Shown here: piece by piece, positions 2,382 to 5,999 of the stretch
How positions within the stretch are numbered: the first letter of the stretch is position 1
Layout: every line of letters begins with the position of its first letter
Source: Desulfofustis sp.
GTDB lineage: Bacteria; Desulfobacterota; Desulfobulbia; Desulfobulbales; Desulfocapsaceae
Length of the DNA: 5,999 nucleotides
NCBI GenBank assembly: GCA_030604345.1
Contig: JAUVWB010000113.1
Location: forward strand, 1-5,999
Direction: 5' to 3'
Position numbers and translations under genes: made by a program
Notes under the pieces: generated by a model
The model's database searches: none
Told to the model about the DNA's origin: nothing
The model's input: the letters and a program-made list of their open reading frames with translations, nothing else

Positions 2382-3492
2382 ATGGCACAGGAAACAGGAG
2401 CGGCAATATCGTTTCAAAGACTTGATGAGATGAAAGAGCGGATGCTGGCCTTGAAGGAGCATCTTTGACTGAGCCGCAAAAAAAGAAGAAGTGGAACAGC
2501 TGGAGCGGCAGACGTTGGCCCCGGATTTTTGGAACGATAAGGAGCGGGCCCAGCGGATCCAGAAACAGCTCGGACAGATGCAGGATATTATCACGAGTTG
2601 GGAGGCTTCCTGGAAGGAGATAGAGGAAGCGCATCTGCTGCTGGAGATGGCGGTCGAAGAGCGGGACGCGGATGCCGAACGGGAGGTGGCCCAAAGCCTG
2701 GCGGCCATCGAACAGGACCTTGACGTCCCCGACCTGGAATGCCTGTTCGGCGGCGAGCACGATGCCAACAACGCGATCGTCTCTATCCATGCCGGAGCCG
2801 GCGGTACCGAGGCCCAGGACTGGGTGGACATGCTGTTGCGCATGTATCTACGCTGGGCTGAAGACAAGGGTTTCAAGACGGCGATCCTCGATTATCTCGC
2901 TGGAGATGAGGCCGGCGTCAAGAGCGTTTCCATCTTATTCAAGGGCAAATACGCGTACGGTTATCTGCGCTCGGAGTTGGGTATTCACCGCCTGGTCCGA
3001 ATCTCTCCCTTTGATGCCAGCGGGCGGCGGCACACCTCGTTCGCCTCGGTGATGGTGATGCCGGAACTGGACGACACGGTCAACGTCGAGATCGACGAAA
3101 AGGATCTGCGCATCGATACCTATCGCTCGAGCGGTGCCGGCGGTCAGCACGTCAACAAGACCGATTCGGCGATCCGGATCACTCATCTGCCCACCGGTAT
3201 TGTCGTCCAGTGCCAGAACGAGCGATCCCAGCACCGCAATAAGGATATGGCCATGAAAATGCTGATGGCCCAGCTCTACGAACGGGAGCAGGAACGGCAG
3301 GCGCAGGAACAGGAGAGCCTGCACGGTGAGAAGAAGGAGATAGCCTGGGGCAGCCAGATTCGCTCCTATGTCCTGCAGCCGTACCGGTTGATCAAGGATC
3401 ACCGCACCGATTACGAGGTGGGAAATGTCGACGCAGTCCTGGACGGTCGTCTCGACCCGTTCATCAAGGCCTATCTGCTCTGGGCGAAATAG
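2382..3492 (+). CDS. prfB: Peptide chain release factor 2 (programmed +1 frameshift; extra in-frame TGA)
   Basis: RF2 ends translation at UGA and UAA. The frame from 2467 to 3492 carries the anticodon-like SPF motif (codons 3004-3012) in [19 protein letters not shown] and the peptidyl-hydrolysis GGQ motif (3139-3147) in [20 protein letters not shown]. The residue at the position of E. coli Thr246 is Ser, a common state. The N-terminal part is in the other frame: ATG 2382 opens a 28-codon zero-frame segment (MAQETG...LKEHL) ending at TGA 2466-2468, with a canonical shift site. Joined this way RF2 has 369 residues (E. coli 365) and GGQ falls at 253-255 (E. coli 250-252). ATG 2364, six codons earlier, is an alternative start; neither has a strong ribosome binding site. 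Oddity: after the shift the second codon is TGA (2470-2472), so the joined frame is not open. The longest clean frame begins at GTG 2491 (333 residues). The gene stops with TAG, an RF1 codon. Confidence 0.93.
2454..2469 (+). promoter_or_regulatory. prfB: RF2 autoregulatory +1 frameshift site
   Basis: AAGGAG (2454-2459), a 3-nt spacer CAT, then CTT TGA C (2463-2469). This is the same arrangement as E. coli prfB (AGGGGG, UAU, CUU UGA C). In the known mechanism the internal Shine-Dalgarno pairing and slow decoding of the UGA at low RF2 let the P-site tRNA-Leu slip forward one base from CUU to UUU, so that GAC is read next. High RF2 favours termination and a short peptide. The elements are seen directly; the activity is inferred from the family. 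Confidence 0.93.
2470..2472 (+). other. Second in-frame TGA just after the prfB shift site
   Basis: In the +1 frame the codons after CTT read GAC, TGA, GCC, GCA, AAA, AAA, GAA, GAA, GTG. Apart from the TGA this fits the usual RF2 pattern: E. coli has L-D-Y-D-A-K-K-E where this sequence gives L-D-stop-A-A-K-K-E. The stop therefore sits inside the homologous frame rather than at a boundary. A base error, a true nonsense mutation and recoding cannot be separated from the sequence alone. Confidence 0.85.
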
Positions 3493-4816: not shown

Positions 4817-4841
4817 AAAAAAGCGCGCGTTCGTCCAGCGC
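4817..4841 (-). terminator. Possible weak terminator after the small membrane gene
   Basis: Read on the minus strand, GCGC (4841-4838) and GCGC (4826-4823) can form a 4-bp GC stem with an 11-nt loop. G.U pairs could extend it slightly. It is followed at once by six T (4822-4817). It lies 5 to 29 bases past the minus-strand stop at 4846, which is the right place for a terminator, but the stem is short. No plus-strand terminator with a T run is seen in the 60-base gap after 4785. Confidence 0.25.
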
Positions 4842-4845
4842 CCGG

Positions 4846-5040
4846 TTAACGGGGTAGACGATCGATACGCTGTTGCACGGCCGTCGCACATCCGCAGCCG
4901 GAATGACCGCCCGGGTGGCAGGTCCCGTTGGGCGACGCGCCCATCCGCCCGCCGGCCCGGCGTCGGCAGAAATTGATCAGCAGCGCCGCCCCGATGAACA
5001 GTGGGATGGTCAGCAGTAGAGTGGTGAAAAACAGGGTCAT
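4846..5040 (-). CDS. Small one-helix Cys-containing membrane protein in NqrM position
   Basis: The product has 64 residues. Residues 2-24 form one hydrophobic helix (TLFFTTLLLTIPLFIGAALL...), then a basic stop RRRAGGR, then a glycine-rich tail with cysteines at 25, 41, 49 and 51. I chose ATG 5040 because GGAGG lies about 8 bases upstream on the minus strand, inside the last codons of nqrF; TTG 5055 is an in-frame alternative that overlaps nqrF. NqrM, a maturation factor thought to help put iron into the NqrD/NqrE site of Na+-NQR, is a small membrane protein with four conserved cysteines encoded just after nqrF in many genomes. Position, size, single helix, RRR after the helix and four cysteines all fit. 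The common GSCGG-type motif is not present, so this is a divergent NqrM or an unrelated small protein. That it is a real gene is likely; its function is a guess from context. Confidence 0.7.
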   Translation of the reverse strand: MTLFFTTLLLTIPLFIGAALLINFCRRRAGGRMGASPNGTCHPGGHSGCGCATAVQQRIDRLPR

Positions 5041-5044
5041 GGTG

Positions 5045-5999
5045 TTACCCTCCAAAGTCGTCGAAATGGATGTTCTCCCGTTCGACGCCCAGGTTGTCGA
5101 GCATTTCCAGCACCGATTGCAGCATCATCGGCGGGCCGCAGATGTAATAGTGCACATCCTCGGGTGCCGGGTGGTCCTTGAGGTAGGTGTGATAGAGGAC
5201 CAGGTGGATGAAGCCGACTGGACCTTCCCAGTTGTCCTCGGGCAACGGTGCGGACAGGGCCAGGTGGAAGGAGAAATTTTCGTGTTCGCGGGCCAGCTGC
5301 TCGAATTCGTCCTGATAGAAGACCTCTTTCATGGAGCGGCCGCCATACCAGAAAGAGACCGTGCGCGTCGTATGGCGCCGCTTGAACAGGTCGAAGATGT
5401 GGCTGCGCAGCGGCGCCATGCCGGCGCCGCCACCGATGTAGATCATTTCCTCCGTTCCCTCGTCGATGAGAAAGTCGCCGTACGGTCCGGAGATGGTCAC
5501 CTCATCGCCCGGTTTGAGGTTGAAGATGTAGGACGAAGCCTGACCGGGCGGGACGGCCGGCTCTCCCGGCGGCGGGCTGGCGATGCGCACGTTGAGTTTG
5601 ATGATGCCTCTCTCGCCGGGATAGTTGGCCATGGAATAGGCCCTGGTGACCGGGATGTAGACATGGGATTTATACTGGAACATCTTGAACTTGCGCCAGT
5701 CGCTGAGAAATCGTTCGTCGATTTCGAAACTTTGGTATTCCAACTCATGGGGTGGCACCTCGATCTGGATGTAGCCGCCGGCCTTGAAATCCACCTGTTC
5801 TCCCTCCGGCAGCACGAGTACCAGTTCCTTGATGAAGGTAGCCACGTTATCGTTGGATTTTACGATGCACTGCCATTTCTTGGTCTCCAGCATTTCCGGG
5901 GGCACTTCGATGGACAGATCCCGCTTGACCGGGACCTGGCAGGCCAGGCGATAGCCTTCCCGGGCCTCCCGGCGGCTGATCGCCCCTTCTTCGGTGGGC
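5045..5999 (-). CDS. nqrF: Na+-translocating NADH:quinone reductase subunit F, 5' end outside window
   Basis: NqrF is the NADH-oxidising entry subunit of Na+-NQR: electrons go from NADH to FAD, then to a 2Fe-2S centre and on to the membrane subunits, driving Na+ export. The minus-strand frame is open to the window edge, so the GTG at 5905 is internal. The visible 317 residues begin in the ferredoxin-like domain ([20 protein letters not shown], with the last cluster cysteine at codon 5939-5941) and continue through [15 protein letters not shown]. The FAD-binding RAYSMAN motif is at 5624-5644, the NAD-binding [12 protein letters not shown] at about 5400-5436, CGPPMM at 5123-5140, and the conserved C-terminus FDDFGG ends at 5048. 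About 90 N-terminal residues, including the membrane helix and three cluster cysteines, are missing to the right. The upstream genes nqrA-E would be expected beyond the window. It stops with TAA, and the ribosome binding site of the next gene lies at its end. Confidence 0.96.

Follow-up and report, generated by a model that had tools for sequence, protein, structure and literature searches.

A second UGA directly behind the frameshift site of a Desulfofustis prfB gene, probably an error in the consensus sequence

Results

Gene content of the window

The window (the whole stretch of DNA that was analysed, 5,999 nucleotides of a Desulfofustis contig) carries prfB, the gene for release factor 2 (RF2), among the following genes, given in their order along the sequence:

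First in the window: the end of a CBS-domain gene of the CorC/GldE kind (NCBIfam matches under the cut-offs)
Second, directly before prfB: lnt
Third, plus strand: prfB
Fourth, after prfB: a gene for a GlpC/LdhH-like iron-sulfur protein (NCBIfam matches under the cut-offs)
4846-5055, minus strand: a small cysteine-containing open reading frame that adjoins nqrF
Last in the window, minus strand: nqrF

The small frame beside nqrF looks like that of an NqrM-type maturation protein. The nearest genome examined, G001 (one contig of 4,232,141 bases), aligns with all 5999 bases of the window at 94.0% identity; a further genome, G002, is placed in the same genus as the window. Over the approximately 6 kb aligned with G001 there are 355 mismatches and two gaps, one of a single base at 4817, outside genes, and one of three bases at 4930, inside the small frame at 4846-5055. 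T-to-G changes make up 17 of the 355 mismatches, a count given here without a formal test.

The prfB frameshift cassette

The region in which translation of prfB begins is composed of the following elements:

2382..2468, plus strand: zero-frame leader, from ATG at 2382 to the CTT that ends at 2465 (28 codons), followed by the regulatory UGA at 2466-2468
2454..2459, plus strand: AAGGAG, a Shine-Dalgarno-like (SD-like) stimulator
2460-2462, plus strand: CAT spacer
2463..2469, plus strand: shift site CTT TGA C (slippery CUUU, weak UGAC stop)
2467..3492, plus strand: main prfB frame, +1 relative to the leader, interrupted at 2470-2472
2470..2472, plus strand: second UGA, codon 2 of the +1 frame, where G001 has a leucine codon

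As a member of the prfB frameshift family the shift site is ordinary, apart from the stop that interrupts its +1 frame. The window shares with the known autoregulatory shift of prfB the short leader, AAGGAG, the three-base spacer before CTT TGA, the C after the stop and an RF2 body in the +1 frame, and the gene encodes RF2 (positions 2491-3489 match the prfB model TIGR00020 at 516.3 bits, cut-off 370). Unlike known prfB shift genes, however, it has UGA as the second codon of the +1 frame, which reads GAC (2467-2469), TGA (2470-2472), GCC GCA AAA AAA GAA GAA (2473-2490) and GTG (2491) and is then open as far as the TAG at 3490-3492, so that a plain single shift cannot give full-length RF2. A preliminary description of this DNA had reported an intact shift signal, followed after GAC by a stop ahead of the conserved A-K-K-E stretch, and had concluded that one ordinary +1 shift could not produce the whole protein; the letters and coordinates are as it gave them, and the conclusion holds. 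Its further claim, that the stop lies inside the homologous frame, is borne out by the RF2 proteins compared: all nine that cover the site read L-D-L there, and the tenth (P0001, representative of a cluster of 12 member sequences and 98% identical to the window's protein in a protein search) begins downstream.

The signal itself is widely shared. In a set of 144 prfB loci (L001-L144) that collapse to 120 distinct sequences, mostly drawn by their similarity to the window and hence not independent, CTTTGA stands at the same place in every one of the 120 and is followed by C in 104, and AAGGAG stands at the same place in 97, with variants in the other 23. Against G001 the leader (2383-2468) has no difference at all. 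A hairpin is predicted at 2440-2464 (GGATGCT pairing with AGCATCT, and CCT with AGG), its stem taking in part of the SD-like element; a 61-base stretch containing it was matched or bettered in folding by 12 of 200 shuffles (z -1.70).

Several ways around the second UGA were considered. A start upstream in the +1 frame is closed off by TGA at 2452-2454, with no ATG, GTG or TTG in between. A seven-A run at 2478-2484, one A longer than in G001, lies right after the second UGA and is a possible slippage site; the zero frame beyond the first UGA is open for 23 codons, and read-through of that UGA followed by a slip on the run is possible on paper, at the price of two rare events. A changed genetic code is unlikely, given that the two genes directly upstream of prfB end at TGA.

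Comparison with relatives

From 2383 to 2477 the window and G001 differ at base 2471 only: G001 has TTA (leucine) where the window has TGA, and its +1 frame is open throughout. The next differences, at 2478, 2515 and 2529, are all silent. Across prfB as a whole there are 32 silent and 9 altered codons (the stop being among the 9) and no insertions or deletions, with 34 of 43 mismatches at third positions; this pattern indicates that the rest of the gene was under purifying selection, and kept working, until recently. As TGA is absent from G001, a regulatory stop could have arisen only after the split from G001, or else have been lost there.

The 120 distinct relatives tell the same story of a sense codon at 2470-2472, which is leucine in 108 (TTA in 74, other leucine codons in 34), valine in 8, and phenylalanine, isoleucine, arginine and proline in one each. 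T is the middle base in 118, a stop at this codon occurs in none, and no stop of any kind occurs within the first 14 codons of the +1 frame at these loci; loci L145-L174, which are matches to a loose pattern, were left out of the codon count. The preliminary description had proposed looking for the TGA in the prfB of close relatives, and it is not kept there. Its suggestion that the stop could be a base error or a strain-specific mutation fits these sense codons.

Wider searches gave the same picture. Of the 257 genomes of the order, none was matched by a strict pattern for tandem stops (CAT spacer fixed, TGA and TAA covered at the codon, TAG not); with TTA substituted for the stop, the pattern matched 112 of them, so that it reaches only part of the order. 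A loose pattern matched 274 of 395 genomes of the phylum, with a comparable count for its reversed control, which makes it uninformative; the strict pattern was used instead. In a protein search reading through stops, 236 of the 257 order genomes were matched, and among the matches listed no stop was found in any of the 149 rows of 150 that span the codon. The corresponding search of the 395 phylum genomes (394 with any match, RF1 included) likewise showed no stop in 149 codon-spanning rows of 150 among the matches listed; the order and phylum sets overlap, and some rows may be genes without a shift.

Some further observations were made in these comparisons. Among the distinct relatives with leucine at the codon following the shifted GAN, TTA is used in 74 of 108, against 142 of 3760 leucine codons elsewhere in the same genes, a contrast between related loci whose counts ignore descent; this rare codon may be kept there as an unlisted part of the shift cassette. 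In G031, a draft genome of the same order, codon 39 of the +1 frame of prfB is a lone in-frame TAG (locus L175, G031:C84:400-2000), and CTTTGA is present at the shift site, so unshared stops do occur where no frameshift logic applies. Three genomes at least 95% complete lacked a strong match to prfB (G035 and G451 in the order listing, G386 in the phylum listing), perhaps through assembly gaps.

Discussion

A probable error at base 2471

The second UGA is probably an error in the consensus (of base calling, of assembly, or from mixed strains) within an otherwise ordinary RF2 shift gene. On this explanation the mechanism would be that described in the literature on the prfB frameshift family: when RF2 is low, the ribosome would pause at the UGA at 2466-2468, slip from CUU to UUU and continue in the +1 frame. 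In the living cell it would there meet a sense codon at 2470-2472, as in the relatives, and RF2 would be made by a plain single shift.

The second UGA hangs on one base and is absent from all relatives examined. As to the need for the gene, passages of a study of Pseudomonas fluorescens report that alleles with lowered frameshifting grow poorly and that a doubly weakened allele gave no transformants (PMC13245932). A base that is unshared, in a gene that is needed, favours an error. An argument against an error is that the rest of the window looks clean in comparison with G001. Moreover, of the 129 single-base changes that would create a stop in the +1 frame of G001, 6 fall ahead of the first restart codon and 2 affect this codon, so that a random error landing here would be a few-per-cent event (though it was to this site that the preliminary description had been drawn). 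The same passages report that in minimal medium the cost of low RF2 is milder, with none for one weak allele (PMC13245932), and a slow grower might thus tolerate a real mutation. We infer, for the explanation preferred here, that the base is an error rather than a real mutation, an error being the more likely of the two.

A recent nonsense mutation

The stop could also be real and recent, the strain living on reduced RF2 obtained by read-through, by restart, or by both, a possibility to which we give less credence but which deserves consideration. Shifted ribosomes would partly read the UGA at 2470 with a near-cognate tRNA, for example that of tryptophan, and translation might also resume at one of two codons in the RF2 frame:

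2491..2493, plus strand: GTG, first possible restart, with a weak upstream SD (-1.9 kcal/mol with the anti-SD)
2515..2517, plus strand: TTG, second possible restart, with GGAG 9 bases upstream (-6.0 kcal/mol with the anti-SD)

A restart at TTG 2515 or GTG 2491 would give an RF2 lacking its first 44 or 36 of 369 residues, respectively. The GGAG before the TTG, a codon that is CTG in G001, speaks for this reading, as do the cleanness of the rest of the window and the lower price of RF2 shortage in minimal medium. Leakiness of UGA under weak RF2 is also on record: parts of PMC7918605 give, for one reporter in Bacillus subtilis, 6% read-through in a normal strain and 19-54% in prfB mutants. A survey of tryptophan tRNAs that read UGA covers diverse bacteria, and the term Desulfo is absent from the portion of it consulted (PMC13092985); a guessed anticodon-loop pattern for such a tRNA had two matches in G001, neither of them a tRNA according to ARAGORN.

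Several findings count against a real mutation. The UGA is unshared, low RF2 is costly to P. fluorescens in rich medium according to the same passages of PMC13245932, and the relatives do not conserve either restart codon as a start: among the 120 distinct sequences, GTG stands opposite 2491 in 8, and a start-type codon stands opposite 2515 in 19, with GGAG upstream in 4 of the 19. The window's TTG at 2515 may therefore be a neutral silent change.

A double UGA gate

The preliminary description had also raised a bolder possibility, a doubled UGA gate in which a shortage of RF2 would promote the +1 shift as well as read-through of the second stop. Had such a gate evolved, its negative feedback would be steeper. 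The UGA would then be genuine and have become fixed in this lineage of Desulfofustis, with RF2 made only via shift plus read-through, a two-step gate sensing RF2. Both stops are indeed RF2 codons, lying side by side after the shift, and both leaks would be expected to rise together as RF2 falls; control of RF2 by read-through was also once entertained on principle in the literature (PMC5009743, section 29). We nevertheless regard both the gate and its fixation in the lineage as very improbable.

Selection would be expected to keep such a second stop in relatives, and none of those examined has one, be it among the 120 distinct loci, in the 257 genomes under the strict pattern, or among the protein matches listed. 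Its context counts against the gate as well: the base after the second UGA is G rather than the conserved weak C, and the RNA after it is of no unusual stability (118 of 200 shuffles of the 60 bases starting at the UGA fold at least as well, z 0.28). According to section 29 of PMC5009743, RF2 genes in which the same frame continues past an early UGA were unknown as of 2016, as were organisms in which read-through replaces the RF2 frameshift; a second UGA after the shift is not a topic of that section. A genome survey found the usual premature stop of prfB in 8,164 of 12,753 genomes, and reports no second one in the portion consulted; the phrases 'second stop', 'two stop' and 'additional stop' are absent from its main text (PMC12421855). 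Judged by titles and the openings of abstracts, no RF2 gene with a second stop is reported among the literature matches listed; as far as these go, a double gate, if confirmed, would be new. The window does resemble the read-through genes of the survey in PMC7918605, as the available parts describe them, in that a UGA interrupts an otherwise conserved frame; that survey, however, took only stops present in at least two genomes, limiting sequencing errors, while the window's stop comes from one sequence only.

Of the preliminary interpretation, then, the part that allowed for an error or a mutation stands, and the doubled gate finds no comparative support. On the present evidence, an artefact or a recent private mutation is a better account of the extra stop than a new control device.

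A second gene copy and selenocysteine

It is equally hard to believe that the window's prfB is a non-functional copy and that another prfB, outside the window, supplies RF2. The strain is known here from the window alone, and a further copy could exist in it; yet G001 and G002 have one prfB each, the second match in them being 35-36% identical, as expected for RF1, and selection on the rest of the window's gene looks intact. That the second UGA encodes selenocysteine is highly unlikely: G001 does have a tRNA-Sec gene (72.5 bits, cut-off 47; ARAGORN anticodon tca), and G002 also scores over the cut-off, but a UGA or cysteine codon occurs at this position in none of the 120 distinct relatives, and the 60 bases from the UGA, in the same test of general folding, fold no better than shuffles.

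Conclusions

If, as we consider probable, the second UGA is an error in the consensus, the case is a caution that a famous recoding site tempts the over-reading of a single base. If the stop were real, it would show either that a bacterium can survive on very little RF2 or that RF2 can be sensed by read-through; and a true double gate, very improbable as we hold it to be, would be notable as a case in which RF2 synthesis depends in part on reading through a stop codon in the gene's own mRNA.
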